64,000 nt of DNA from Chloroflexota bacterium (lineage in GTDB: Bacteria; Chloroflexota; Dehalococcoidia; Lucifugimonadales; UBA3495). The number at the start of each line of letters is the position of its first letter. Positions within the stretch are counted from its first letter, which is position 1. The stretch covers positions 1-64,000 of the forward strand of contig VXOG01000051.1 in NCBI GenBank assembly GCA_009840165.1, given 5' to 3'. Shown here one piece after another: positions 43,981 through 58,495 of this stretch. The notes under the pieces were generated by a model that saw only the letters and a program-made list of their open reading frames with translations, did not search any database and was not told the origin of the DNA. Both the position numbers and the translations under genes were made by a program.

Positions 43981-44400
43981 ATGTTGACTGACGCGCAACG
44001 GGATTTCCTGACCCGCAACCACAATGGGGCTCTAACCACGTTCCGCCGCAACGGAGCGGCGCAGATGAGCATTGTCACCTGTGGCATCTACGGCGACGGT
44101 GTAGCATTCACCACCACTGAAGACCGGGCCAAGTTGCGCAACCTGCGGCGGGATCCGCGCTGCACCATCCTGGTGGGCACCGACGACTGGCGCAACTTCG
44201 TGGTGCTGGAGGGCGAGGCCCTGCTGGTGGGTGTCGATAACTCCAGCGCCGATGAGTACCGGGAGACGCTGCGCAACGTGTATCGCACGGCGGCGGGACA
44301 GGAACACCCCAACTGGCCGGAGTACGACCAAGCGATGCGGGACGACCGGCGGTATGGCGTGGTTGTGACGCCGACACACGTTTACGGGCGTGGGGATTAG
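43981..44400 (+). CDS. PPOX-class (pyridoxamine oxidase-fold) F420/flavin-dependent protein
   Basis: 139 residues forming one split beta-barrel: LTRNHNGALTTFRRNG, RDPRCTILV, FVVLEGEALL and the C-terminal VVTPTHVYGRG are typical of the TIGR03618-type family. Such proteins bind F420 or flavin and reduce diverse substrates. ATG 43981 has AAGGAG upstream. Cofactor choice cannot be fixed by eye; the LLM-type enzyme at 57.6 kb makes F420 use plausible. Confidence 0.85.
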   Translation: MLTDAQRDFLTRNHNGALTTFRRNGAAQMSIVTCGIYGDGVAFTTTEDRAKLRNLRRDPRCTILVGTDDWRNFVVLEGEALLVGVDNSSADEYRETLRNVYRTAAGQEHPNWPEYDQAMRDDRRYGVVVTPTHVYGRGD

Positions 44401-44401
44401 A

Positions 44402-44432
44402 GTAGGGGGCAACCACAAGTGTTGCCCCCTAC
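44402..44432. repeat. GTAGGGGC-class palindrome (family A)
   Basis: 12-bp arms GTAGGGGGCAAC / GTTGCCCCCTAC around CACAAGT; a family B copy follows at 44442. The two repeat types together fill the gap between convergent genes and may terminate both. Confidence 0.85.
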
Positions 44433-44441
44433 CTGTAGCGT

Positions 44442-44469
44442 CTGGATTCCCGCTTTCGCGGGAATGACG
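44442..44469. repeat. Family B palindrome
   Basis: CTGGATTCCCGC-TTTC-GCGGGAATGACG. Confidence 0.85.
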
Positions 44470-44486
44470 ATTGTCAGTCCGATGCG

Positions 44487-46769
44487 TCAGATGATGCCTT
44501 CGGCCAGGCGTAGGGCTTCCACGTCGAACGGGATGTCGTCGTATTCGCCGTTCAGCGCGGCCAGCACCCGTTCGCCGGACAGCGGCAGTTGCTTGACCCG
44601 CACGCCCACGGCGTCGTAAACGGCGTTGGCGATGGCGGCGGGCGGCCCGAAGCCCGGAGGCTCGGCGACGGCGCGGGCGCCGAAGGGTCCATCTTCTGCC
44701 GGAACACGGATCAGTACGTCCTCAATTTCCGGCAGGTCGATGGCCAGCGGCATCAAATACGACGCGAAGGATGGGTTGCGGACAGCGCCGTTGTCGGGGT
44801 CAAACTGCTGGTCTTCGGTGAGGGCGCGCCCGATGCCTTGCACCACGCCGCCGTCGAGCTGACCCTCAACCGCCATGGGGTTGATGGCCACGCCGACGTC
44901 CTGCGCCTGAACGTAGCGAAGGAGCTTGATCTGGCCAGTGCCACGGTCAACCTTGATCTCGGCGGCCTGTGCCGCGAATACAGGCGTGTAGGGCATGCTG
45001 GAGAGCGCGGCCGTGCCGATGATCGGCCCACCCCGGGAGGTGATGCTGGCGGCGGCAAGTTGGGCGAAGGTCAAGCCCTGGGGCTCGTTGTCCATCACGT
45101 ACACCCGGCCATCCTCGCATGCAAGGGCGTCCTCGGGGACTCCCAGGCGCTCAGCGGCGAGGGCCGTCAGTTTCTGCACGGTGTCCTGAGCCGCCCGGTG
45201 CACGGCAGTACCCTGGCTGTACACGACGCGACTGCCGCCGGACTGGCCGGTATAGGGAGCCATGTCGGTATCCCGCTTGGCGACGATGACGCTTTCCATC
45301 GGGATGCCCAGCGCTTCGGCGGCGATCGCGGCCAGCGAGGTGTCACTGCCCGAGATGTCCGTGGAACCGGTGAGCAAGCTCACAGTCCCGTCGTCGTTGA
45401 TGCTGATGGCGGCGGTGGATGGGCCGCTGCCGCTGCGCCATTCGCACAGGGCCAGGCCCAGACCATGTCCGTCCTCAAGCTGCCGGGGCCATTCCATCTT
45501 TTCCTTGATCGCCTCGAGCGTCTCGATCAGCCCGTTGGATGGGACAACCGCGCCGCTCACGGACACGTCGCCCTCACGCAGGGCGTTGTGCAGGCGCAGG
45601 TCGTAGGGGTCCATGCCGATTTCGTGGGCGATGCGGTCCATGTGGGACTCGACGGCGAAGGTCATGTCGGCGACGCCGGAGGCGCGGTAGGATCCTACAT
45701 AGATCTTGTTGGTGTACACGCCGTAAGACCGCAGCCGGAAGTTGGGGATGCGGTACGCGCCGATGCCGTGTCCGATGCCGGAGTTGGGCCCCGCGCCCAG
45801 GTACGCGCCCACATCGAATATGGTGTAGGCCTCCCGGGCGACGATGGTTCCATCATTCATCACGCCGGAGCGGATGTAATTGGTGACGGGCAGGCGCGGG
45901 CCGTTCAAGGTGAACACTTCCTCACGCGTGTTGATCAGCTTGACCGGCCGGCCGGTGCGCATGGCCAGTAGAGCGGGGAACGCCTCACAAGCCAGACGCA
46001 GTTTGGCACCGAAGCCACCGCCCAATTCCATGGCAACCACGCGGATGCGGGAAACGGGCATCTCCAGCACGCCGGCCAGACTTGCGCGTAGCTGGTATGG
46101 GCCCTGGGTGGACGCGTACATGACCAACCGTCCGTTGGGTTCCACGTCAGCCACGCAGGCCATCGGCTCGAGGAAACCCTGGTTGATGCCCTGGGATCGG
46201 TACACGTCCTCAACGACCACGTCGGCGTCGCGGAAGGCCTGTTCAACGTCGCCCCGGTCGGCGTCCAGCAGCGTGCTGACGTTGTGCCCCAGGGTGAATC
46301 CGTAGCCTTCGTAACTTTCCAGTTCAGGATGCACGGACGCCGCCCCTTCCACCATCGCCGCCAACGGGTTGACCACCGAGGGGATATCCTCGTATTCGAC
46401 TCTGATGAGCTCGACGGCTTCCTGCGCCGTCGCTTCGTCGTCGGCCGCGACGGCGGCAATGGGCTCCCCCACGAAATTGACCACCTCGCGAGGCATCACG
46501 TACCGGTCGCGGAGGGCGCCGGAGCCGTAACGAATATCCGGGAAATCCGAGCCCGTGATGATGGCCCGCACGCCCGGCAGCGCCGCGGCCTGGCTGGTGT
46601 CCATGCTTACTATGCGGGCGTGGTTCCGCGTGCTCGGGAGGAGTTTGCACGCCAGCATACCGGGTAGGTACACGTCGGAGGCGTAGGTGGCGCGACCGGT
46701 CACCTTGTCGTGAGCGTCCACTCGGGGGTGGTTCTGTTCCAGGACTTTGAACTGGGTTGCGGTAGTCAT
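44487..46769 (-). CDS. Xanthine dehydrogenase-family molybdopterin-binding subunit (CoxL-like)
   Basis: 760-residue large subunit of a molybdenum hydroxylase. Family parts: KVTGRATYASDV at the N-terminus, ELGGGFGAKLRLACE, and the catalytic Glu region ARAVAEPPGFGPPAA near the C-terminus. The active-site loop reads GSYRASGVAD; the form I CO dehydrogenase motif AYxCSFR and the form II AYRGAGR are both absent, so CO oxidation is unlikely and the substrate is probably a small aldehyde or N-heterocycle. It is third in an FAD-FeS-Mo gene trio. Confidence 0.9.
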   Translation of the reverse strand: MTTATQFKVLEQNHPRVDAHDKVTGRATYASDVYLPGMLACKLLPSTRNHARIVSMDTSQAAALPGVRAIITGSDFPDIRYGSGALRDRYVMPREVVNFVGEPIAAVAADDEATAQEAVELIRVEYEDIPSVVNPLAAMVEGAASVHPELESYEGYGFTLGHNVSTLLDADRGDVEQAFRDADVVVEDVYRSQGINQGFLEPMACVADVEPNGRLVMYASTQGPYQLRASLAGVLEMPVSRIRVVAMELGGGFGAKLRLACEAFPALLAMRTGRPVKLINTREEVFTLNGPRLPVTNYIRSGVMNDGTIVAREAYTIFDVGAYLGAGPNSGIGHGIGAYRIPNFRLRSYGVYTNKIYVGSYRASGVADMTFAVESHMDRIAHEIGMDPYDLRLHNALREGDVSVSGAVVPSNGLIETLEAIKEKMEWPRQLEDGHGLGLALCEWRSGSGPSTAAISINDDGTVSLLTGSTDISGSDTSLAAIAAEALGIPMESVIVAKRDTDMAPYTGQSGGSRVVYSQGTAVHRAAQDTVQKLTALAAERLGVPEDALACEDGRVYVMDNEPQGLTFAQLAAASITSRGGPIIGTAALSSMPYTPVFAAQAAEIKVDRGTGQIKLLRYVQAQDVGVAINPMAVEGQLDGGVVQGIGRALTEDQQFDPDNGAVRNPSFASYLMPLAIDLPEIEDVLIRVPAEDGPFGARAVAEPPGFGPPAAIANAVYDAVGVRVKQLPLSGERVLAALNGEYDDIPFDVEALRLAEGII

Positions 46770-46790
46770 CGGTTGCCTCCGTGTAGGTTC

Positions 46791-46826
46791 TCCCTCACCC
46801 TAGCCCTCTCCCATCAAGGGAGAGGG
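46791..46826. repeat. CCCTCACCC...GGGAGAGGGG repeat (family C)
   Basis: CCCTCTCCC-ATCAA-GGGAGAGGG hairpin preceded by CCCTCACCCTAG, between the Mo and FeS subunit genes. An almost identical copy lies at 47331, between FeS and FAD genes, so the repeat separates each pair of subunits. Confidence 0.85.
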
Positions 46827-46846
46827 GACATTATCAGCTACGGTAA

Positions 46847-47323
46847 TCAGGCGGATGCTCGGATTTCGGCGGCAGCGGCCATGATCGCCTCGATCACGCG
46901 GTTATACCCCGTGCAGCGGCAGAGGTTCCCGCCGATGGCGAAGCGAACGTCCTCTTCAGTTGGATCGGGATTCGCTTGCAGGAAGCCGGTGGCGGACATG
47001 ATCAGGCCCGGGATGCAGAACCCGCATTGGAGGCCCCCGTGCTCCACAAAGGCTTTTTGCACGGGACTAAGACCATCCACGTCGGCCAGGCCCTCGATGG
47101 TGGTGATCTCGGAATCGTGGGCGCTGTGGGCCAGCACGAGGCAGGACGTAACGGGCTTGCCGTCCATCAGGACGGTGCAGGCGCCGCAGTCGCCTTCATC
47201 GCAGCCTTTCTTGGATCCGGTGAGCCTGGCATCGTCGCGCAGGCAGTCCAGGAGGGAATAGAACGGCTCCACCAGGAGCAGGCGGTTTTCGCCGTTTATG
47301 TTGAGTGTCAATGGTTGTTTCAT
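46847..47323 (-). CDS. [2Fe-2S] subunit of the molybdenum hydroxylase (CoxS-like)
   Basis: 158 residues. Plant-type ferredoxin cluster CDEGDCGACTV with a later Cys in VTSCL, and the second cluster CGFCIPG ... CRCTGY in the helical C-terminal domain. It passes electrons from Mo to FAD. The start is ATG 47323 (MKQPLTLNING); an upstream in-frame start falls in a family C repeat. Confidence 0.93.
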   Translation of the reverse strand: MKQPLTLNINGENRLLLVEPFYSLLDCLRDDARLTGSKKGCDEGDCGACTVLMDGKPVTSCLVLAHSAHDSEITTIEGLADVDGLSPVQKAFVEHGGLQCGFCIPGLIMSATGFLQANPDPTEEDVRFAIGGNLCRCTGYNRVIEAIMAAAAEIRASA

Positions 47324-47330
47324 CAGGTCA

Positions 47331-47367
47331 CCCTCACCCTGACCCTCTCCCATCAAGGGAGAGGGAA
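47331..47367. repeat. CCCTCACCC...GGGAGAGGG repeat (family C)
   Basis: CCCTCTCCC-ATCAA-GGGAGAGGG hairpin preceded by CCCTCACCCTGA, overlapping the region just upstream of the FeS subunit start. Confidence 0.85.
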
Positions 47368-47387
47368 TTATCAGGATTCACAAATAC

Positions 47388-48305
47388 TTACCAGGCGGTT
47401 TGAACGGCCAAGCGGCGGATGTCATCGAAGGTCGGGGGATTGCCGGCAGTGGCAACGGCATGGGTGAGTGTGCGCTCGGTCAGGACGCGCACCATCTCGC
47501 GGCGATAGTCGGCGCCGCTGCGCACGTCGGCGATTGGATTGCAGGATTGGGCGGCCAGGCGGCCGGCCTCGGCGAGGTTGGCGGCATCCGGTGTTTGGCC
47601 CACCAGACGCCCCTCGGCGCCGTAGGCTCGCATGGGAGTTGGGGCGACGGCGCCCATGGCAATCCGCGAGGAGGCGCAGGTTCCGTCGGCGTTCAGGCTG
47701 ACCACGGAGGCGACGCCAACCGCCGAAATGTCCATCGCGCCGCGGGGGCTGTGCTTGATGTACAACCCGCCCGTGTTCTCAGCCGGAGCGGGCAGCCGGA
47801 TTTCGGTCAGAATCTCGCCGGGTTCCAGGGCGGTGCGGCCCGGGCCGACGAACACCTCGTCCAATGGCAGCCAACGCTCGCTTCCGGTTCCGACGATGCG
47901 GCATTGGGCGTTGTAGGCGAGCAAGGCGGGCAGGGTATCGCCGGCAGGGGAGGCGTTGCACACGTTGCCGGCGACCGTGGCGAGGTTGCGGACCTGCACG
48001 CCGGCGAATGCGGTCGCGCCGGCAGTCAAGGCAGGGTAGCGACTGCGCACGTCGTCGTTCTGCTCAATGTCCTGTACGGTCGCCATCGCGCCGATGGACA
48101 GGCCGTCGTCAGGGTTCCAGGAAATATAATCGAGGCCGGGGACGTGCTGCATGCAGACCACGGAATCGGGCCGCCACACGCCGGTGCGCCAGCGAACCAG
48201 GAAGTCGGTGCTGCCGGCGACGAGGCGGGTATTGTCTCCGCCGTCGGCCAGCATCCGGAGCGCCTCATCCAGGGAGCGCGGCTCCAGGTAATCAAAACGA
48301 GCCAT
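47388..48305 (-). CDS. FAD-binding subunit of the molybdenum hydroxylase (CoxM-like)
   Basis: 305 residues from ATG 48305 (MARFDYLEPRSLDEAL); a longer upstream frame is non-conserved. FAD motifs AGSTDFLVRWRTG and TVAGNVCNASPAGDTLPAL are present. It is first in the transcription order FAD-FeS-Mo. It accepts electrons from the FeS subunit and passes them to NAD or quinone. Confidence 0.92.
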   Translation of the reverse strand: MARFDYLEPRSLDEALRMLADGGDNTRLVAGSTDFLVRWRTGVWRPDSVVCMQHVPGLDYISWNPDDGLSIGAMATVQDIEQNDDVRSRYPALTAGATAFAGVQVRNLATVAGNVCNASPAGDTLPALLAYNAQCRIVGTGSERWLPLDEVFVGPGRTALEPGEILTEIRLPAPAENTGGLYIKHSPRGAMDISAVGVASVVSLNADGTCASSRIAMGAVAPTPMRAYGAEGRLVGQTPDAANLAEAGRLAAQSCNPIADVRSGADYRREMVRVLTERTLTHAVATAGNPPTFDDIRRLAVQTAW

Positions 48306-48409
48306 TAAGCCCTCCAACTCCGGCGCGGTAGTTGCTGGGGAAAGGGAGTCAGCGGAACATTCCCAATGCGCCGGACGGGTCGGATTATAGGGTTGGGCGG
48401 CAAACGCGG

Positions 48410-48859
48410 TCAACGCCGTCGTGCCGCACGGAGGGACCAGGTAATCCATGCCAGATTCAGGCACAGCATGGCAAATACGGCTCCATCAATCCATTGCAAT
48501 GAGGTGAGCGGCAAAACGCCAGTGAACGGATACAGGGAGAACGCCCATCTCAGATAAAACACCGCCAATGCGCCGGCGGTCACCAACGCGAATCGGAACG
48601 ATAGGAGTGTCCCAAATGCACCCAACACTGCCAAAACCGGGGTCAAAATGGCCACAACCAAATTCGGTGAGAAGGCATCATCCACCCGGATCAAAAAGAA
48701 GATTCCCAATATCCCCACATAAATCACGGGCAATGCCAGCAACCCCAACAGCAAGGCAACGATGCTTCTTGCCGGGGTTACCCGAAAGGCCCTGGGTAGT
48801 ATGTTCTGCATACGAGTATCCAAAGCTTCCATTCGCTCGCCTCGACGGATATATCGCAT
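48410..48859 (-). CDS. Small multi-pass membrane protein, unknown
   Basis: 149 residues with four hydrophobic helices: IVALLLGLLALPVIYVGILGIFFLI, LVVAILTPVLAVLGAFGTLL, ALVTAGALAVFYLRWAFSL and AVFAMLCLNLAWITWSL. Both ends are basic. No family is recognised. It lies between the CoxM-like gene and the fusion gene, both on the same strand. Confidence 0.6.
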   Translation of the reverse strand: MRYIRRGERMEALDTRMQNILPRAFRVTPARSIVALLLGLLALPVIYVGILGIFFLIRVDDAFSPNLVVAILTPVLAVLGAFGTLLSFRFALVTAGALAVFYLRWAFSLYPFTGVLPLTSLQWIDGAVFAMLCLNLAWITWSLRAARRR

Positions 48860-48895
48860 CCTCCATCGGTCAAACCAAGGGTGAGTTTCAATGAT

Positions 48896-48922
48896 AAGGG
48901 CGGGTTTGAAACCCGCCCCTAC
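48896..48922. repeat. GTAGGGGC-class palindrome (family A), degenerate
   Basis: AGGGCGGGTTT-G-AAACCCGCCCCTAC. One extra C in the right arm and loss of GTA on the left make it imperfect. It resembles the first copy at 80-108 in its inner TTT/AAA part. Confidence 0.7.
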
Positions 48923-48944
48923 TTTGGTTCATTTTTTGTACGCG

Positions 48945-51035
48945 CTACCTGCCGTTGCCGTAGGGCTGAATCAGTACGCGGAGGGTGCCGTCGTTCTCCT
49001 TGCGCTGGGTGAGGAGCTTGTGGCCGGCCTGCTCCGTCCAGTAGATGACGTCGTAGATGTTGAGGGCGTCGTGGAGGATGGCCTCGATGAACGACGTGCG
49101 GTCGTACTCCATCTGGCGGCTCAAGGCGGCGATGACGCCGGCGCAGTTCTTGCCTCGCCCGTCGATTATCGTCCATCCGCTACCGTTCTGGTGGCCGTTG
49201 CCGTTGCCATTGTGGGCGACGCCGACGGGGGCGCGCACGTCGATCTGGCCGCTCTTGCGGAGGCCGAGCTGCTCCTTGAAGTAGGCGACGGCCTCCCACG
49301 CCACGGCGCGGTCGCGTTCGCCACTGGAGCAGACGGCACCCCGGACACCCACGATGTCGGGGTTGATGCGCGCCAGTTCGTCCAGGTTGTCCAGCTTCAG
49401 GTGGCCGCTGAGGGCCGTGCTGAGTCCGGCCGCCTTGGCCTCCATGACCATATCCCGGAGCACCGGCTCGGGCATGAAGTCGAACAGGTTGCGCCCGTCC
49501 TTGGTCAGAGTGTCGATGAGGAAGCCGTCGCACTCGCCGTCTTTGGCCAGTTGCACCATCAGGTGCGGGTCCAGGCCGCCCTCGAAGAGGAAGTTGTCGG
49601 CAAACAGCGAGCCGATGAGCTTGGTCTCCGCGTTACCGATGGCAGCGCGAGATTCACGGAGAACCTCGACGGCGGTTTCGTAGTCGGCAACCTGGAAACC
49701 GACCTTGACGGAGGTAGCGTCCATCATCGTTGCCGCGTGTACAGCCATGGCTACGGTGCCCGGCTGGTTGGGCACGACGCCGAGGGTAACGCTGACATGC
49801 TTGTGGGGCGGGATGATTTCCCGCACTTCCCTGACCAGACTGGGATGGGCGGAACCCACCAACGCTTCTTGCAGGTTTTTCAAATCGATGATGTCGGCGC
49901 CGCCGCGGTCGGCTTCCAGCGCTTCGGCCTTGTTCTGCGCGCTGACCAGCAGCATCATGCCGGACCCTTCGAGGTCCAAGTGGCGGCCGGGGTCGCGGTT
50001 GCCGTTGAGCCAGGGGGCGTGGGGGCGACCATGGATGACCTCGCGTTGCGGTTCACGAGAGGCAGTCGGGCGGGGAATCAGAGGCTCCAGTTCCCGCCAG
50101 AGCGCGCCTTTTTGCTCGTCGGTGAGGTCGGTCAGGGGGGCTCGGACGCTGCCGCCGGCCATGCCCATCATCTCGCCCCAGGCCTTGCACATGGACACGG
50201 GCAAGGCACCGCCGGTTTTCTTCATGGTGCCGCCCCACCATTTGTCGGACAATGCCTTGATGTCCTTGAGGTGGCGGTTGTAGAAGTCCACGTCGAGGTC
50301 GCCGGCGGTGGCACGGTCGATGAACTGCGTGTAGTAGTTGTGCAGCGGGGTGTCGAAACGCCAGTCGGAGGTGTTGGCGAACATCACCTGCTGGTGGAAT
50401 CCCAATTCCCTGGCCTTGTGGAAGATCCACTCATCGGGCGTGCTGATGATGGCATCCCTGCCGACCAGCAGGTGCGTCTCAATGGAAATCTGCTGGTTGA
50501 AGCTGGCTTCCTTGACGCCGACTACGTTGGGGATGGCGCAGAGGCGCTTGAGTCCCTGGGGGCTGATGGTGATGCCGAATTGCGGGGAGTTGTAGAACAT
50601 CATCGCCAGGTCGGTGCTGTCGGCGACCTGCGCCACGAAATCCACGACCTGGTCCTCGGTTTTGGTGACCATGTAGGACGGGGCGATGATCAGCAGGTCA
50701 AACCCACGATCCTGGGCGTGCTCGGCCAACGCGATGCTTTCCCTGAGAGAGGTATCGGTTACGTGGGCGCCGATGAGCCAGCGGCCGGCGGCTTCGTCGG
50801 CCACCGTATCCATGACGATGCGACGTTCCGCCTCGGTGAGGCTCCAGAACTCACCCATGTTCCAGGTACAGCCGCCGCCGCGAACGCCGAGGCTCTGGAC
50901 GTGCCGGATGTTGCTGCGGAGTCCTTCGGTATCGACCCGGTTATCGGGGGTAAAGGGCGTGACGAGTGTCGTCCACTGCCCTTTCAGAGTTTGCCAAGCC
51001 CATTCCTGAGCCTCGTGCTTGCGGTAACCGGCCAT
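48945..51035 (-). CDS. DapA-like / MfnB-like / TusA-like three-domain fusion protein
   Basis: 696 residues in three parts. 1-320: dihydrodipicolinate synthase/N-acetylneuraminate lyase family barrel with Y148 (FYNSP) and Schiff-base K175 (VVGVKEAS). 360-590: MfnB/DUF556 family, which makes a furan aldehyde phosphate from two triose phosphates in methanofuran synthesis; the catalytic Lys positions are kept, K386 (ADIIDLKNL) and K512 (DTLTKDGRNLFDF), with VGVRGAVCSSGERDRA near the end. 620-692: TusA-like sulfur-carrier fold with C631 (GRGKNCAGV) and WTEQAGHKLLTQRKENDG. A His/Asn/Gly linker (HNGNGNGHQNGSG) precedes the last domain. The combined product is unknown; it may make a furan- or thio-containing cofactor. 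mutM is upstream, 107 bases away. Confidence 0.82.
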   Translation of the reverse strand: MAGYRKHEAQEWAWQTLKGQWTTLVTPFTPDNRVDTEGLRSNIRHVQSLGVRGGGCTWNMGEFWSLTEAERRIVMDTVADEAAGRWLIGAHVTDTSLRESIALAEHAQDRGFDLLIIAPSYMVTKTEDQVVDFVAQVADSTDLAMMFYNSPQFGITISPQGLKRLCAIPNVVGVKEASFNQQISIETHLLVGRDAIISTPDEWIFHKARELGFHQQVMFANTSDWRFDTPLHNYYTQFIDRATAGDLDVDFYNRHLKDIKALSDKWWGGTMKKTGGALPVSMCKAWGEMMGMAGGSVRAPLTDLTDEQKGALWRELEPLIPRPTASREPQREVIHGRPHAPWLNGNRDPGRHLDLEGSGMMLLVSAQNKAEALEADRGGADIIDLKNLQEALVGSAHPSLVREVREIIPPHKHVSVTLGVVPNQPGTVAMAVHAATMMDATSVKVGFQVADYETAVEVLRESRAAIGNAETKLIGSLFADNFLFEGGLDPHLMVQLAKDGECDGFLIDTLTKDGRNLFDFMPEPVLRDMVMEAKAAGLSTALSGHLKLDNLDELARINPDIVGVRGAVCSSGERDRAVAWEAVAYFKEQLGLRKSGQIDVRAPVGVAHNGNGNGHQNGSGWTIIDGRGKNCAGVIAALSRQMEYDRTSFIEAILHDALNIYDVIYWTEQAGHKLLTQRKENDGTLRVLIQPYGNGR

Positions 51036-51142
51036 CTTAGTCAGCCTCCAAAAGCAGTTGTTCTATGGATACCAACGCGGGATCATGCCGACAACATGAC
51101 CCGATTAGTCAAGGACAGTGTAAGCGGGCGGGCGGGCGGTAG

Positions 51143-51961
51143 TCAATGACGGGCGACCGGCTGGCAGTCCGGGCAGTACCAGGTGCTGCGGTTGCGAACG
51201 CGCAGCAGTTGCACCTCGGCGCCGCACCGCGGGCACGGCAGATTTGGGCCGCGCGGGATCGTCCATGGAGACAATGCCGTGGGCGGGTCGGGCCATTCGG
51301 CATCGCGGGCGGCGGCGTAAGCCTCGGTGGAACGGGTCAGAGCGGTTACGATGGCACTGTGGAGGCGAGAGGTTTCGGCCTCGGACAGGGTATTGCCGGA
51401 GCGTTCGGGATGGATACCAGCGAGAAACAAGGACTCGTCAACGTAAAGATTGCCGAGGCCGGCGACGACGGACTGCTCCAGCAGCAGGGCTTTCAAGGGA
51501 GCTTTGCGCCCGGCAAGCGCGTCCGCAAGAACATCATCGGTAAAGGACGGTTCCAGCGGTTCCGGCCCCATTTGGGACATGGCGTCGGCAGGGTCAGACA
51601 GCAGCCAGAGATGGCCGAACTTGCGTGGGTCGATGAACCGCATCTCCCGCCCGTCGTCCAACGGGAAGGTATGGCGCACCATGGGCGGCGGTTCGCTGTC
51701 ACCGTCGTGGATGCGGAGCCGGCCCGTCATGCCCAGGTGGAGCACCAGGTGCTGTTCGTCATCCAGCGGGGCGATGAGGTACTTGCCGCGTCGGTGCACG
51801 TCGGCTACCCGGCGGCCGGCCACGCCCTCGATAAATTCGCCCACCGACGGCTCGCGGATGGTGTTGGCCCAGGTAATTTCCGGCGCGCCCAGCCCGCGCC
51901 CGACGAGGCCGGAACGGATCAGGTACTGGCGGGTGTTTTCCACTTCGGGGAGTTCGGGCAC
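51143..51961 (-). CDS. mutM: Formamidopyrimidine-DNA glycosylase
   Basis: 272 residues. N-terminal PELPEVENTRQYL with catalytic Pro2/Glu3, the helix-two-turn-helix region with VAGLGNLYVDESLF, and a C-terminal zinc finger CPRCGA ... CPDCQ. It removes 8-oxoguanine and opened purines. It is the third DNA glycosylase in the window, after the Mug-type and AlkA-type enzymes. Confidence 0.96.
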   Translation of the reverse strand: MPELPEVENTRQYLIRSGLVGRGLGAPEITWANTIREPSVGEFIEGVAGRRVADVHRRGKYLIAPLDDEQHLVLHLGMTGRLRIHDGDSEPPPMVRHTFPLDDGREMRFIDPRKFGHLWLLSDPADAMSQMGPEPLEPSFTDDVLADALAGRKAPLKALLLEQSVVAGLGNLYVDESLFLAGIHPERSGNTLSEAETSRLHSAIVTALTRSTEAYAAARDAEWPDPPTALSPWTIPRGPNLPCPRCGAEVQLLRVRNRSTWYCPDCQPVARH

Positions 51962-52052
51962 AGCGATTCATCCAGATTCCATTGACCAATGTACTAGTTT
52001 GTACTGACTGCGCTACGACCGAAAATGTCTTCCCGTCGACGATCTCTTGCAG

Positions 52053-52958
52053 TCATTCAATGCGAGGGGCATTAGGCCAACGAGTTCCGCGGAGTAAGCT
52101 TCGTTCTTTCCGTCGTTCCGATTCATAGCTGCTACTCAGGGCTTCGCGGACCGCAGACATTACCCGTTGTGCCATATCATCGTTGTCATCACAGACACCC
52201 TCTATTGCCTCCATGGCAACCCGGTAGGCTTCCCGGTACGCGTGGAGTAGTCCCGTATCGTGGCCAGAGTCGTAAAGATTAGAAGACAAAGGTCCAACTG
52301 GAGAAGAGGGGCCTACGAACCCAAAATCCTTGGCGCTGTAGCTCTTTTCTTCCGCATCCTCGTCATTGGTCAAGCCCTTTTCTGCTAATGCTCGGTATGC
52401 CTGGTATGCCGCAAGGATAGTGGCCTTTGCATCAGGAGGAACACCAGCTGCATCGTAGAGGTCTTCATCGGACAAAACATCATGGAAATTTGCCCAGCCT
52501 CCGGATCCGATCACATACGCTGCGGCAAAAGCAGACAGCAAATCAAGGGAGAAATCTTCACGCGCCTGCTTGCGATCAGCAGAAATCCAGTGAAGGGAGA
52601 AATCTTTGGGATCAAGGTTGTTCTTTAAGGTTCGAGTAGCCTCAAATCGGGCTTTACCCTCAGCGACCCACGCACCATAACCGCGACGTTCACGTGCCTC
52701 TTCAGCCCGTCGCCGAGCAGATTCGACCCAAGGATCCTCAGGAACTTGAACCCATTCACCCTCGTCCTCGTACCACTGACCCGGTCCATACCCGATATCT
52801 GATGGCTCATCGTCGAACATGGCGGCCTCAATTTCGTCTCGTTCCCGCCATTCCCGCCATACCCGCTCCCTCCCGGGAGCAACGTCAGCGTAACCGGCAG
52901 CAAATGCAGCTGAGAAGCCTGCGGCGAAAGCTCGGAAAGCGGCTTTGTAATTATTCAC
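52053..52958 (-). CDS. Hypothetical orphan protein
   Basis: 301 residues, no family recognised. The N-terminus is Ala/Phe-rich (AFRAFAAGFSAAFAAGYADV) and amphipathic, followed by an acidic Trp/Tyr segment (DIGYGPGQWYEDEGEW) and several Ala-rich helices, ending with a basic ESERRKERSLL. There is no signal peptide. Base composition is less GC-rich than in flanking genes, which hints at a recent arrival. It lies between ileS and mutM on the same strand but 125 bases from ileS, so it may be independent. Confidence 0.6.
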   Translation of the reverse strand: MNNYKAAFRAFAAGFSAAFAAGYADVAPGRERVWREWRERDEIEAAMFDDEPSDIGYGPGQWYEDEGEWVQVPEDPWVESARRRAEEARERRGYGAWVAEGKARFEATRTLKNNLDPKDFSLHWISADRKQAREDFSLDLLSAFAAAYVIGSGGWANFHDVLSDEDLYDAAGVPPDAKATILAAYQAYRALAEKGLTNDEDAEEKSYSAKDFGFVGPSSPVGPLSSNLYDSGHDTGLLHAYREAYRVAMEAIEGVCDDNDDMAQRVMSAVREALSSSYESERRKERSLLRGTRWPNAPRIE

Positions 52959-53083
52959 GATCGTGCTCCAATTTGTGCTCGTCCTAGAATCCCCGATCCC
53001 TTCTGCTTGATAGAGTTGTCAAGCAACTGACAAGAGGAAACCGTGGATTTTGACTCGGGACAGTCGTATTGTTTCAGGCTGCT

Positions 53084-56000
53084 TTACTCTGTAGACACGC
53101 GGCACACTGCCAGCGTGACCTCCATGCCCTCCACCTTGGCGGTTTCGGATTTGGCGTCTTCGGCGGGAGGTTCGGGCAACAGGGCTTCGCTGAGGGTTTC
53201 CTGCATGATGTAGTCTCGATGGCCGGTCATCACGCGCGCCACGTCGTCAGGCCCCTGGTAGTAGGTAACGATACGGTCGGTGATTTCAAAGCGGGCGCCC
53301 TTCCTGAGGTTCTGGATGCGGTGGGCCAGTTCGCGGGCCAGGCCCTCGTCAGCCAGTTCCGGCGTAATGTTGGCATCGACGGCAACCATGTAGCCGGCCT
53401 CCAGCGCGGCGGAGTAGCCGTTGACGGACACAACCGAATCGCCATCGTCGCCGGCCGCCGACTGGGCCTGAGCGTAGAGATCTTGTTCAATCCCGTCGGC
53501 TTGCAACTTCTTGATGTTCAACTCCTCGAGAATCTGTTCGGCGACCCAATCCAGGTACTGAGCCTCGTCAGGCGTGCGGGTACGCACCACCACGGACGCA
53601 AGGGGCTGCCGCACCTTGAGGCCGGCCTTGCTGCGGGCGGCGCGGCCCATGCTGGATACTCGGATGGCCAGCCGGGTTGCGTCCATGATGGCGTCGTCGA
53701 TCAGAGACGGGTCGGCCACCGGGTAGTCGGCCAGGTGTACGCTGTCGGGGGCGTCGGGGTTGAAGCGCAGTTCCAGGTTGCGGTACATCTGCTCGGCCAC
53801 GAAGGGAGCCAGCGGGGCCATGAGGCGGGCGACGGTGGTGAGGCAGGTGTACAGGGTTGCATAAGCACCCAGCTTGTCGGCGTCGGCCTCGCTCTTCCAG
53901 AACCGGCGGCGGGAACGGCGGACGTACCAGTTGGAAAGCACGTCGATAAACTCGGCGATGCGCCGGCCGGCGTCGGTGGGGTTGTAGTTGTCCAGATGGC
54001 CATCAACCACCTGGACCAGTTGGTTGAGCTCGGCCAGCACCCAGCGGTCAAGCTCGGCCTCGGGGCGCCAGTCCGCGGGGATCTGGGAAGGCTCAAATTC
54101 GTCAATGTTGGCGTAGTTGGTGAAGAAGGAATAGACGTTCCACAGGGTCAGCAGCACCTGGCGGAGGGTCTGCTGCACCAGCCGGTCGGAGAACCGACGG
54201 GGCTCGCCGGGGTGGGAAGCGGTGAACAGATACCAGCGCAGGGCATCCGCGCCATGGGCGTCGAGGATGGAATCGGGTTCGACGATATTGCCGAGGCGTT
54301 TGCTCATCTTGCGGCCCCGTCCGTCCAGGATAAGGCCGAGGCAGATGACGTTGCGGTACGCGATGTCATCCTGTAGCAGGGTGGAGAGGGCGTGCAGGCT
54401 GTAGAACCAGCCCCGGGTCTGGTCAACGGCTTCGCAGATGTAGTCTGCGGGGAGGCGACCGTCGTTTTCGATGTCGCGGTTCTCGAAGGGATAGTGCCAC
54501 TGAGCGAGGGGCATCATGCCGGAGTCGAACCAGCAGTCCATCACCTCAGGGATGCGCTGGAACACGCCACCGCAGGAGTCCGTCGCGCAAGACCAGGTAA
54601 CATCGTCCACGTAAGGGCGGTGAAGGTCCAGGTCGTCCAGATCCTTGCCGGAACGATCCGACAGCTCGGCCACACCACCGACGCAATCCATATCGCCGCA
54701 CCCGTCGCACTGCCAAATGGGTATTGGCGTACCCCAATAGCGCTCGCGGGAGATTGCCCAGTCCACGTTGTTGCGCAGCCATTCGCCAAACCGGCCCTCG
54801 CGGATGTGCTCCGGGTACCAGTTGATGCGGGAGTTATTGCCCACCAGCCGGTCCTTGACCGCCGTGGTGCGGATGTACCAGGACGTTTTGGCGTAATAGA
54901 GGAGGGGCGTGTCACAACGCCAGCAGAACGGGTAGGTGTGGCGATACACGCCCTGGTGGTACAGCAGGCCGCGGGATTCCAGGTCGGCGAGGATTTCCGG
55001 ATCGGCGTCCTTGACGAACTTGCCGGCGAAGGGGTAGTTGCCGGTGATGACGCCCTGCAAATCGACGGGTTGCACAAACGCGAGTTGGTGCTCGCGTCCC
55101 AGGCCAAGGTCCTCGTCGCCGAAGGCCGGGGCGATGTGGACGATTCCGCTGCCGTCGTCCATGCTCACGAAGTCGGCGGAGACGACCCTGGTGGAGTACG
55201 TATCAGCATCCTCCAGGGAAGTCTGCCCATCGTCATTTGCCACAAATCGGCGGATGGGAACGCCGTATTGCGTGGCGTCGTACAGGGGCCGGTATGGCAG
55301 GCCGAGCAGATCACTGCCTTTAACTTCCCGGGTAACGGTGTAGTCAGCCTGTAGCACGCCCAGAAGCGCGGTGGCGAGGGCCATTCGGATCGTATCACCG
55401 GCGCTGTTGGTAATTTCAACGATGGAATAGTCGGCGTCCTCGCTGACGGCCAACGCGGTGTTGCCGGGCAGCGTCCAGGGAGTCGTCGTCCACGCCAAGA
55501 AGTATGAAGGAATGTCGGGGGATTCACCGTCCAGCCACTGAGCTGCCTCAAACTTTACAAATACCGACGGGTCGGGAGTGTTTTCGCGGTAGCCCAGGGC
55601 AACCTCATGAGACGAGAGGCTGGAGACGCAGCGGGGGCAGTGGGGAGCGCCGCGGCGGTCCTGGTAGAGCAGACCGCGATCCCACAACTGTTTGAGAATC
55701 CACCAGCCGGTTTCAATGTAACCATTTTCCAGCGTGACGTAGGGGTCGTCCATATCGACCCAGTAGCCGATGCGGTCGGTCATCACCTCCCACTCTTTCA
55801 CGTAGCGGAAGACGCTTTCGCGGCAGCGTCGGTTAAATTCGGCGATGCCGAATTCCTCGATCTCGCGCTTGGTTGAGATCCCGAGTTCCTGCTCGATTTG
55901 CAACTCGACCGGCAGGCCGTGGGTATCCCAACCGCCCTTGCGGATGACGCGGCAGCCCTTCATGGTGCGGTAGCGCGAGATGACGTCCTTGAACACGCGG

Positions 56001-56191
56001 GCCAGGACGTGGTGAATGCCCGGGCTGCCGTTGGCGGTGGGGGGCCCTTCGTACATCATGAACAGGGGCGCGTCGGGCCGTTCGTCCGAAGAGCGGCGGA
56101 ACACGTCCCGCTCCTTCCAGTAGTCCAGGACCTCTGCATCCAGGTCGGGAAAACTGACTCGGCTGGAAACCACGTCAAACTTAGCCGGCAT
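53084..56191 (-). CDS. ileS: Isoleucyl-tRNA synthetase
   Basis: 1035 residues, class I synthetase. HIGH-type signature GSPGIHHVLARV (56-67), GWDTHGLPVE, editing domain with LAWTTTPWTLPGNTAL, and KMSKRLGN near 628. The early GPPTANGSPGIHH resembles the eukaryote-like IleRS2 type, which is often insensitive to mupirocin; this is an inference. It follows thiD by 23 bases. No T-box is visible, the upstream space being too short. Confidence 0.96.
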   Translation of the reverse strand: MPAKFDVVSSRVSFPDLDAEVLDYWKERDVFRRSSDERPDAPLFMMYEGPPTANGSPGIHHVLARVFKDVISRYRTMKGCRVIRKGGWDTHGLPVELQIEQELGISTKREIEEFGIAEFNRRCRESVFRYVKEWEVMTDRIGYWVDMDDPYVTLENGYIETGWWILKQLWDRGLLYQDRRGAPHCPRCVSSLSSHEVALGYRENTPDPSVFVKFEAAQWLDGESPDIPSYFLAWTTTPWTLPGNTALAVSEDADYSIVEITNSAGDTIRMALATALLGVLQADYTVTREVKGSDLLGLPYRPLYDATQYGVPIRRFVANDDGQTSLEDADTYSTRVVSADFVSMDDGSGIVHIAPAFGDEDLGLGREHQLAFVQPVDLQGVITGNYPFAGKFVKDADPEILADLESRGLLYHQGVYRHTYPFCWRCDTPLLYYAKTSWYIRTTAVKDRLVGNNSRINWYPEHIREGRFGEWLRNNVDWAISRERYWGTPIPIWQCDGCGDMDCVGGVAELSDRSGKDLDDLDLHRPYVDDVTWSCATDSCGGVFQRIPEVMDCWFDSGMMPLAQWHYPFENRDIENDGRLPADYICEAVDQTRGWFYSLHALSTLLQDDIAYRNVICLGLILDGRGRKMSKRLGNIVEPDSILDAHGADALRWYLFTASHPGEPRRFSDRLVQQTLRQVLLTLWNVYSFFTNYANIDEFEPSQIPADWRPEAELDRWVLAELNQLVQVVDGHLDNYNPTDAGRRIAEFIDVLSNWYVRRSRRRFWKSEADADKLGAYATLYTCLTTVARLMAPLAPFVAEQMYRNLELRFNPDAPDSVHLADYPVADPSLIDDAIMDATRLAIRVSSMGRAARSKAGLKVRQPLASVVVRTRTPDEAQYLDWVAEQILEELNIKKLQADGIEQDLYAQAQSAAGDDGDSVVSVNGYSAALEAGYMVAVDANITPELADEGLARELAHRIQNLRKGARFEITDRIVTYYQGPDDVARVMTGHRDYIMQETLSEALLPEPPAEDAKSETAKVEGMEVTLAVCRVSTE

Positions 56192-56214
56192 ATTTCTAAC
56201 CTCTTCTTCGGGAA

Positions 56215-57015
56215 TTACCGCCAGAAGGCATGAAAATGGTGCAACGGCCCATGCCCTTGCCCAATAGGATAAGCCGCGCCGATGGCGGCGGTCACATACT
56301 CCTTGGCCTGTTCAACCGCCGCCGGCAGTTCCAAGCCGTGCGCCAAACCCGCGGCCACGGCTGAAGCGAAGGTACATCCGGTGCCGTGGGTATTGGTGGA
56401 GGGGATGCGCTCGGTGGTGAACTCCATGAATTCATTGCCGTCGTACAGGATGTCCGTGGGCGGGCCGTCTCGATGACCACCTTTGACAACCACCGACTTG
56501 GCGCCCATGCTTATGATGTCTTCCGCTGCCCGGCGCGCGCCGTCATCAGATGCGATGGATCGCCCCGTCAAGTCCTCGGCCTCGGGGATATTGGGAGTGA
56601 CCACCCTTGCCAGCGGAATCAGCTCGTTGCAGATGGTGGCGATGGCCTCATCGCGCAAAAGGCGGTCGCCACTCTTGGCAACCATCACCGGGTCCACCAC
56701 CAGGTTTGAGATGCCGTGGCGACGCACGGCGTCGGCCACCGTTGTTACGATGGCAGGGGAGGACAGCATTCCGGTCTTTACCGCGTCCGCGCCGATATCC
56801 GATATAACCGCGTCAATTTGCGCGGCAATCACGTCGGTGGGGATTTCGTGAACGGCGGTCACGCCCACCGTGTTCTGCGCGGTGATCGCGGTCAAGGTGG
56901 ACGTACCGAAAACGCCCAACGCGGAGAAGGTCTTGAGGTCGGCCTGTATGCCAGCTCCTCCGCCGGAGTCGGAGCCGGCGATGGTCATTGCGGTTGGCGG
57001 TGTGGATGAGTTCAT
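56215..57015 (-). CDS. thiD: Hydroxymethylpyrimidine (phosphate) kinase
   Basis: 266 residues, ribokinase fold. [22 protein letters not shown] at the N-terminus binds the pyrimidine, and [18 protein letters not shown] carries the catalytic Cys/anion hole. Phosphorylates HMP and HMP-P in thiamine synthesis. It lies between a GYD protein gene and ileS, same strand; no TPP riboswitch is seen. Confidence 0.95.
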
Positions 57016-57064
57016 GGGGTTACGCTAAATGCCTGGGTGCATAGTCATTTGCGATTTCGGACAC

Positions 57065-57090
57065 TAGATTCCGGCTTTCGCCGGAATGAT
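57065..57090. repeat. Family B palindrome with partial tandem tail
   Basis: TAGATTCCGGC-TTTC-GCCGGAATGATGA then another ATCCGGAATGACGAAT half (57094-57109), similar to the tail amplification at 23501. Confidence 0.8.
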
Positions 57091-57126
57091 GAATATCCGG
57101 AATGACGAATATAATGTCAGCAGAAC

Positions 57127-57510
57127 CTAGTCGGGATCGTCGGGGATGCGCCAGTCGTCGGTCTCGGCGCTCTCATCGGGCCCGGCCGGCAGATTCATGG
57201 CGACGGCTGCATCCCGCAGTACGCTGATGTGCTCTTCATCGGAAAGGACGCCGATGTGCAGAGCGGGCAGGGTTTCAATGTTCAAGCCGGCGGCCAGACC
57301 AAGCTCCAGAGAAAGACGGACGGCGGACTGGTTGTCGGCGGCTTCGGTGATGATGACGAAGTCGTAGCGGCCCAGAACGGCGTATTGAGTAAGAACTTTG
57401 CCGGCGGCGGTTTCAACGGCGGCGGCGGCATCGCTGAGCAGATTGGGGTTGTCATGCCCCATGCGTCGGCCGCGTCCGGTAAGGTTGGCGAGCATTACGT
57501 AGAGAGGCAT
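57127..57510 (-). CDS. GYD-domain protein
   Basis: 127 residues. The ferredoxin-like GYD domain (PF08734) is seen as MPLYVMLANLTGRGRR, VLTQYAVLGRYDFVIITEA (the family GxYD) and a third strand LGLAAGLNIETLPAL. The last 20 residues are acidic. The function of GYD proteins is unknown. It is upstream of thiD and divergent from the LLM oxidoreductase. Confidence 0.85.
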   Translation of the reverse strand: MPLYVMLANLTGRGRRMGHDNPNLLSDAAAAVETAAGKVLTQYAVLGRYDFVIITEAADNQSAVRLSLELGLAAGLNIETLPALHIGVLSDEEHISVLRDAAVAMNLPAGPDESAETDDWRIPDDPD

Positions 57511-57572
57511 TATTGGGCACCTTTTTGCAGAGATAATCAGGGAGCAACCGCAAGTAGTATAGCATTGCGAGA

Positions 57573-57601
57573 TTGGCCGGAATCCTGGCGCATGTTATCA
57601 T
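57573..57601 (+). promoter_or_regulatory. Probable promoter of the LLM oxidoreductase gene
   Basis: TTGGCC (57573-57578), 17 bases, TATCAT (57596-57601). The start near 57608 leaves a leader of about 45 bases to ATG 57653, which is preceded by GGGAGG. Confidence 0.5.
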
Positions 57602-57652
57602 CCCGCAGACAATCAGGACCACGCAGCGGGAACTAGCCCAGGGAGGTCTGGC

Positions 57653-58495
57653 ATGGACATCGGCTTGAATATGTCGATTTCTACCAACTCAATAGACGTA
57701 GCGGAGATTGCGGCCAAAGCGGAAGCATTGGGGTTCGAGTCGATCTGGCTGCCTGAGCATCCTGTGATGCCGGTGAACCCGGAGTCGAAATACCCGGGTT
57801 CACCCGACGGTTCAATACCAGACTACATGAGCGACATGGCCGACCCATACATCGGGTTGGCGCGGGCCTCGGCGGTCACCAACACCATTAAATTGGGAAC
57901 CGGGATTACCCTGATACCGGAGCGCAATCCGTTGGTGCTGGCCGGCGCCATTGCATCGCTGGACCGTTTCTCCGGCGGCCGATTCCTCCTGGGCATCGGA
58001 ACCGGCTGGCTGCGGGAGGAAACGGAGATAATGGGCGGCGACTTCGATCACCGCTGGACGCAGGCCAGGGAAGCAATTGAGGTGATGCGCGCGCTATGGA
58101 CGCAGGACTCCGCTGAGTACCATGGCCGCTATTACAATTTCCCGCCGGTTCAGTGCAACCCCAAGCCGGCTCAAGAAGGTGGGCCGCCGGTCATCCTGGG
58201 TGGCAATGCCCGCAACGTGTTCCGACGGATAGCGCGTTGGGGCGACGGTTGGATGCCCACCGCTTCCAGCCCGGAACAGATCGCGGCGGGCCGGGCAGCC
58301 ATTGACGAGCTGGCGGAAGCCTCGGGGCGAGACCCTGCGGGCATAGGCATCACCGTGTTCGGTCAGCCGGCTGACCGGAACCTGATATCGCAATTCGAGA
58401 GCGCGGGGGCCAACCGAGTGATAGTCCGCCTTGGGGACACCACGAGCCGTGAGGCCCTGGACGAGGTCGAACGCATCGCGGAAGCCATTTTGTAA
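57653..58495 (+). CDS. LLM-class F420-dependent oxidoreductase
   Basis: 280-residue TIM barrel of the luciferase-like monooxygenase superfamily. Diagnostic parts: ESIWLPEHPV, LGTGITLIPERNP, LGIGTGWLREE and VILGGNARNVFRRIARWGDGWMP. The closest class is TIGR03619-type, F420-dependent. It would reduce or oxidise an unknown substrate with F420. Downstream is a 472-base gene-free region. Confidence 0.9.
   Translation: MDIGLNMSISTNSIDVAEIAAKAEALGFESIWLPEHPVMPVNPESKYPGSPDGSIPDYMSDMADPYIGLARASAVTNTIKLGTGITLIPERNPLVLAGAIASLDRFSGGRFLLGIGTGWLREETEIMGGDFDHRWTQAREAIEVMRALWTQDSAEYHGRYYNFPPVQCNPKPAQEGGPPVILGGNARNVFRRIARWGDGWMPTASSPEQIAAGRAAIDELAEASGRDPAGIGITVFGQPADRNLISQFESAGANRVIVRLGDTTSREALDEVERIAEAIL

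Follow-up and report, generated by a model that had tools for sequence, protein, structure and literature searches.

The locus and its gene

The window analysed here is a stretch of 64,000 nucleotides from a Chloroflexota bacterium (contig VXOG01000051.1, positions 1 to 64,000). It contains, on the minus strand, a gene of 696 codons plus a stop whose single open reading frame joins an aldolase-type domain of the DHDPS family, a domain resembling the furan-forming enzyme MfnB, and a C-terminal domain that we take to be a divergent relative of TusA (table 1). An earlier note on this DNA, which left the strand unstated, had described this frame as a three-domain fusion and had drawn from it a pathway. 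The frame is real, and the three folds are recovered by Pfam profiles, by a structure model and by profile–profile comparison; the observation is confirmed and the interpretation is partly supported. None of the five residues singled out in that note (Tyr148, Lys175, Lys386, Lys512 and Cys631) varies among 28 full fusions.

The AlphaFold2 model was built with 28 full-length relatives and has a mean predicted local distance difference test score (pLDDT) of 80.0 and a predicted template modelling score (pTM) of 0.48. It consists of two barrels and a C-terminal beta-alpha-beta-alpha-beta-beta domain, connected by two linkers of low confidence (residues 323–358 and 603–618). The second of these is the His/Asn/Gly linker reported before, which differs among the relatives. 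Another open reading frame, of 752 amino acids, runs across the same bases on the plus strand (48891–51149). It is antisense to the conserved fusion gene, and the idea of a shadow frame was dropped on that account.

The three domains

The middle domain matches PF04476 (4HFCP_synth) with 186.4 bits against a curated cut-off of 22.4, as expected from the earlier assignment to MfnB. Foldseek returns 4RC1, the MfnB of M. jannaschii (MJ1099), as the top match of the model, followed by DHDPS and N-acetylneuraminate lyase structures; measured over the target, the template modelling score to the 4RC1 barrel is 0.93, and the structurally aligned residues are 38% identical. Asp384, Lys386, Lys444, Asp508 and Lys512, all invariant in the 28 fusions, align with Asp25, Lys27, Lys85, Asp151 and Lys155 of MJ1099, which are catalytic positions of that enzyme. 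The same set is kept in 5/5 compared sequences, the MfnB proteins of Streptomyces and Azospirillum included, and Lys155 is called catalytic in PMC11365854. The predicted MfnB activity of the middle domain is supported by this homology. The window protein differs from MJ1099 in being fused with the DHDPS-like and TusA-like domains and in falling under the NCBIfam equivalog cut-offs.

How closely does the N-terminal domain resemble DapA? With PF00701 it scores 105.8 bits against a curated cut-off of 22.1, which agrees with the family proposed for it before, and it shares with the superfamily of DapA, N-acetylneuraminate lyase and KdgD the fold, the Schiff-base Lys175, Tyr148 and the order of the motifs. 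Identity to E. coli DapA is 22%. At the places of Thr44-Thr45, which together with Arg138 are substrate-binding residues of the E. coli enzyme, stands Gly, Asn or Ala followed by Met, and Arg138 is without counterpart. The window domain has instead several fixed tryptophans: Trp58 and Trp64, like Gln152, are fixed in 28/28 fusions, and Trp225 in 27/28. In contrast to the other members of the superfamily, it scores under every NCBIfam cut-off, missing that of TIGR00674 (DapA) at 81.6 against 206.15 bits, and far short of those of the KdgD-type models, one of which is its top match (98.7 against 278 and 79 against 373.95 bits). By these features it is a DHDPS-family enzyme other than DapA. A second DapA-like gene lies elsewhere in the genome, beside an asd-like gene named by sight; with that gene present and the DapA-specific residues gone, a role of the fusion in lysine synthesis is ruled out.

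The assignment of the last region to TusA is marginal for the window copy taken singly, which at 18.9 to 23.8 bits remains below the curated PF01206 cut-off of 28.6. It is supported by matches at E ≤ 0.05 in 13 of 16 MfnB–TusA relatives (best 3.9e-6), by orthologues in G015, G019, G032 and G051 that exceed the Pfam cut-off (the one in G027 does so only with in-frame neighbours), and by a profile–profile alignment with eight TusA proteins over 68 columns (P 1.1e-6, probability 91). Conversely, an ordinary TusA, that of G093, is among the matches of the MfnB–TusA profile (E 3.4e-7). Two results count against the assignment: hhalign against only two E. coli proteins gave a probability of 1.1, and no solved structure came up in a search with the TusA-like profile. 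In the model, strands at residues 621–625, 649–654, 673–679 and 685–690 alternate with helices at 631–644 and 657–669 in the order of the TusA fold, and Cys631 begins the first helix. Cys631 and the motif D-G-x-G-x-x-C are invariant in the 28 fusions and also in 16 members of a wider set; the motif, like a late Trp and His, is shared with TusA. The prolines of CPxP, on the other hand, are gone. C-A-G-V/I stands in their place in 28/28 fusions, whereas CPxP is present in 8/8 compared TusA proteins, such a motif having been part of the choice or retrieval of 7 of them. A further difference is that the domain is joined to a furan synthase. We take it as a divergent TusA relative in which the cysteine persists and the CPxP prolines do not. 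The fusion is the sole TusA match in its own genome, and other SAR202 genomes carry a separate TusA. In G093 the TusA gene adjoins a frame resembling DsrE, both identifications being by sight.

Table 1. Features of the fusion gene, with positions in the window.
Feature	Positions	Strand	Basis or location
Whole gene, DHDPS-like + MfnB-like + TusA-like fusion, 696 residues	48945..51035	minus	open reading frame, Pfam, full-length relatives
DHDPS-family class I aldolase domain, residues 18–314	50094..50984	minus	PF00701 E 2.3e-30, fold, conservation
Tyr148 codon	50592-50594	minus	in DHDPS-like domain
Lys175 codon	50511-50513	minus	in DHDPS-like domain
Inter-barrel linker, residues 323–358	49962..50069	minus	low model confidence
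MfnB / 4-(hydroxymethyl)-2-furancarboxaldehyde phosphate synthase domain, residues 362–584	49284..49952	minus	PF04476 E 8.5e-55, 4RC1 fold, residues
Lys386 codon	49878-49880	minus	in MfnB-like domain
Lys512 codon	49500-49502	minus	in MfnB-like domain
Asp384, Lys444, Asp508		minus	in MfnB-like domain
His/Asn/Gly-rich linker, residues 603–618	49182..49229	minus	alignment, low confidence in model
TusA-like domain, residues 623–690	48966..49169	minus	PF01206 E 0.0014, orthologues, P 1.1e-6, fold order
Cys631 codon	49143-49145	minus	first-helix start of TusA-like domain

Distribution and history of the fusion

Could the long frame be an assembly join of separate genes, the possibility that the earlier note itself had raised? 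Two peptide patterns from the MfnB–TusA alignment were used to scan 84,980 species, each represented by one genome; a relative in which those exact peptides do not occur escapes such a scan, and the counts of loci given here refer to the best 80 of 157 relatives. Although the 80 loci were collected through the MfnB–TusA part alone, every one has the TusA-like domain and, directly upstream, the DHDPS-like part, fused in 51 and adjacent in 29. A join or chimera is therefore rejected, since 51/80 loci are fused, in many assemblies, and the DHDPS-like part lies upstream in 80/80. The same 51 loci answer the earlier suggestion that other proteins sharing the domain order be sought.

In a quickly built tree of all 80 loci the fused rows make up one side of a single branch (Shimodaira–Hasegawa-like approximate likelihood ratio test, SH-aLRT, 84). 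The fused state requires one change where shuffles average 24, and a single fusion event therefore suffices. The hosts are SAR202 Chloroflexota. Three loci labelled Actinomycetota or Planctomycetota (L096, L109 and L107) nest nonetheless among the SAR202 rows; our guess is that they come from mislabelled or mis-binned metagenome-assembled genomes.

The two parts also travel together. Among 60 genomes, that of the window (3.76 Mb, 115 contigs) included, both are present in 47, neither in 13 and a single strong match in none, by a hand count that scores as present a copy in G021 cut by a contig end. By kinship the pair occurs in 14/14 genomes of the window's own genus, 20/22 of the rest of the family and 13/24 of the rest of the order. 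Across 294 genomes of the class the MfnB–TusA profile gives 12 full matches, besides the hit to TusA alone in G093, and the DHDPS profile (E ≤ 1e-60) hits the same 12 genomes at neighbouring coordinates. In another phylum draw of 400 genomes PF04476 was found in two, one of them the window's own. Even genomes of small size retain the pair, for example G204 (1.2 Mb, 92% complete), as would suit a core product. One genome, G050, for which 10% contamination is listed, holds two copies of the gene pair (L049 and L054); the second has the gene lengths and match scores of the copy in G043 and is perhaps a contaminant.

Proposed function and its alternatives

What might such a protein make? The reading that we favour, with a probability of about 0.35, is a compact SAR202 biosynthetic module in which MfnB chemistry supplies the phosphate of a furan aldehyde, a 2-oxo acid is joined to this by the aldolase, and sulfur comes from the TusA-like domain. 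By homology, the MfnB-type domain would condense two triose phosphates to 4-(hydroxymethyl)-2-furancarboxaldehyde phosphate. The DHDPS-family domain, through Lys175 as Schiff base and Tyr148, would then couple the furan, at its aldehyde carbon, with pyruvate or another 2-oxo acid, standing in for the aminotransferase MfnC. In the third and weakest step Cys631 might carry sulfur and pass it either to the product or on to a following enzyme, and the later enzymes of the pathway would be encoded elsewhere. The product would probably be a small furan compound, a cofactor or cofactor-like metabolite other than methanofuran. DHDPS-family hydratase-aldolases that couple pyruvate to aromatic aldehydes exist (NahE, PhdJ); our literature search on enzymes of this type returned no paper. 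The conserved tryptophans lie close to where the pocket is predicted, which, judged by sequence, would favour an aromatic substrate. Among the neighbours one lead recurs: at 16 of the 80 loci (14 upstream, 2 downstream) the fusion shares its strand with an adjacent acetyl-CoA-synthetase-like gene; its family was checked with Pfam in L042 (L042:4331-6289, the same stretch as L090). The enzyme could activate an acid product.

Several points weigh against this reading. Every domain activity in the subfamily is a prediction. The MfnB-like domain misses the NCBIfam equivalog cut-offs (191.3 against 341 and 177.3 against 304 bits), the missing carboxylate-binding threonines of DapA could equally signal a substrate other than pyruvate, and the TusA-like domain is divergent and without the CPxP prolines. 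The pTM of 0.48 makes the relative placement of the domains unreliable. No neighbour is common to the whole group of 80 loci, so that conserved neighbours do not name the pathway, and the 16 loci with the synthetase gene all fall in one 23-row branch of the tree, whence that association may be inherited synteny.

Does the protein handle sulfur at all? The earlier note proposed that it adds or carries sulfur; the one thing in favour of this is the conserved TusA-like cysteine, set against the loss of CPxP and a sulfur-related gene after the fusion in only 2 of the 80 loci. An entire route on one polypeptide, from an MfnB furan through DHDPS chain-lengthening and TusA sulfuration to a sulfur-bearing furan cofactor or metabolite new to science in SAR202, strikes us as doubtful. 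The MfnB and DHDPS domains might instead act as we favour while the TusA-like domain serves, without sulfur, in docking, oligomerization or regulation. The divergence of that domain, its lost prolines and the want of a consistent sulfur-transfer gene alongside speak for such a role; the strict conservation of Cys631 and of D-G-x-G-x-x-C, in the fusions and in the wider set alike, speaks against it, and we give it a limited chance.

A second alternative, the direction chosen in the earlier note, has the aldolase upstream of the furan synthase: the DHDPS domain would cleave a 2-keto-3-deoxy sugar acid, or its phosphate, to pyruvate and glyceraldehyde or glyceraldehyde-3-phosphate, from which MfnB would form the furan. 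Aldolases for 2-keto-3-deoxygluconate (KDG) and its 6-phosphate (KDPG) do exist in the DHDPS family, and models of this kind hit members of the group, the archaeal KDG aldolase model 8/13 at E ≤ 1e-10 and the KdgD-type models 13/13, but the window copy is far under the cut-offs of all of them. According to PMC11365854, MfnB consumes two molecules of glyceraldehyde-3-phosphate and requires no special precursor. Because glyceraldehyde-3-phosphate is a central metabolite, a tied supplier is unneeded and a dedicated aldolase is more likely to act downstream of MfnB; the reverse order is rather unlikely.

Might the gene belong simply to an ordinary methanofuran or methylofuran pathway, the fused partners being accessory? 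According to PMC8141765 and PMC11365854, the furan of that pathway is formed by MfnB. However, formylmethanofuran formyltransferase (FTR) was detected in 0/60 relatives, a respect in which the host clade differs from that of MJ1099, while the control was positive in 2 of 14 genomes, both methanogens; ordinary methanofuran is thus unlikely. The mfnB of Azospirillum, moreover, sits with fhc genes, and the window gene does not. Single-sequence searches with two proteins of the Azospirillum methylofuran locus, a kinase (own genome) and DUF6513 (60 genomes), gave no match and say little, since a positive control is lacking. We consider this pathway very improbable.

Replacement of ThiG/ThiS in thiamine thiazole synthesis is hardly credible and, as a general role, excluded. 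Some 5 kb away in the window there is indeed a gene resembling thiD (identified by sight), and 7 of the 8 relatives lacking full-length ThiG carry the pair, but that share is close to the pair's 47/60 overall, and full-length ThiG (>330 bits) is present in 52/60 relatives, own genome included, comprising 40/47 pair-bearing and 12/13 pairless genomes. The relatives without it are the pair-bearing G016, G034, G037, G041, G050, G051 and G057, and G018; since some of these genomes are incomplete, thiamine auxotrophy is no more than a guess.

The lack of a described enzyme with this domain order, claimed earlier, fits the literature searched (titles and listed abstracts, most subscription journals lying outside the scope). 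Each domain is known in kind; what is new to us is to find them combined, and in this host. MfnB, hitherto tied to the one-carbon coenzymes methanofuran and methylofuran, is here common in a widespread lineage of oceans and sponges in which the matching formyltransferase was not detected, and that relatives keep the parts together suggests a metabolite or cofactor built on furan and not yet described. The domains joined in the fusion indicate which steps would cooperate. Should a furan indeed be formed, these abundant marine bacteria would be the source of a new natural product of that class. Strains of SAR202 group I have been cultivated, according to PMC10444878, and a search for the compound in cells would be feasible if they carry the pair.

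Neighbouring genes and other MfnB-like loci

Around the fusion lie mostly housekeeping genes, and these differ from one family to another. Outside the window's family, but within its order, the pair lies among fakA, degV, recG, Trk potassium-uptake, prephenate dehydratase and aconitase genes (by clustering, one locus being Pfam-checked); carbamoyl-phosphate synthase, cinA, PIN and alpha/beta hydrolase genes are neighbours in single genomes. An mfnC/D/E-like operon, anticipated earlier, is absent among the neighbours whose families were checked, and sulfur-transfer genes are not consistent neighbours either. The 2/80 loci with a NifU_N/IscU-like gene after the fusion are L096:9148-9597, where the family was Pfam-checked, and L109:7876-9777, both in Actinomycetota-labelled metagenome-assembled genomes; in L109 a class III aminotransferase gene comes next.

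MfnB-type genes occur in other company too. On two Streptomyces plasmids (L153:9001-13263 and L154:8986-13356) such a gene is followed on the same strand by genes for an aldehyde dehydrogenase, an alcohol dehydrogenase and an S-adenosylmethionine-dependent methyltransferase, possibly a small furan-metabolite operon. Like the fusion, this cluster places an MfnB-type enzyme outside an evident methanofuran locus; unlike it, the plasmids have no annotated DHDPS or TusA partner, and none of the plasmid hits spans 80% of the MfnB–TusA query.

In the window, Rfam gave no match across 44000–58000, and a frame of 301 amino acids on the minus strand between fpg and ileS (52053–52958) has no Pfam match. 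Just downstream of the fusion, also on the minus strand (44487–48464), lie three genes of a xanthine-dehydrogenase-type molybdenum hydroxylase (MoCoBD, FAD and 2Fe-2S); we left them out of the system because the large subunit is common to only 5 of 34 compared loci. At another locus (L129:3765-9011, the same stretch as L171:3089-8335) UbiD-type, UbiA-looking and UbiX-type flavoprotein genes precede the fusion on the same strand, UbiX being Pfam-checked, UbiD assigned by clustering and UbiA by sight.
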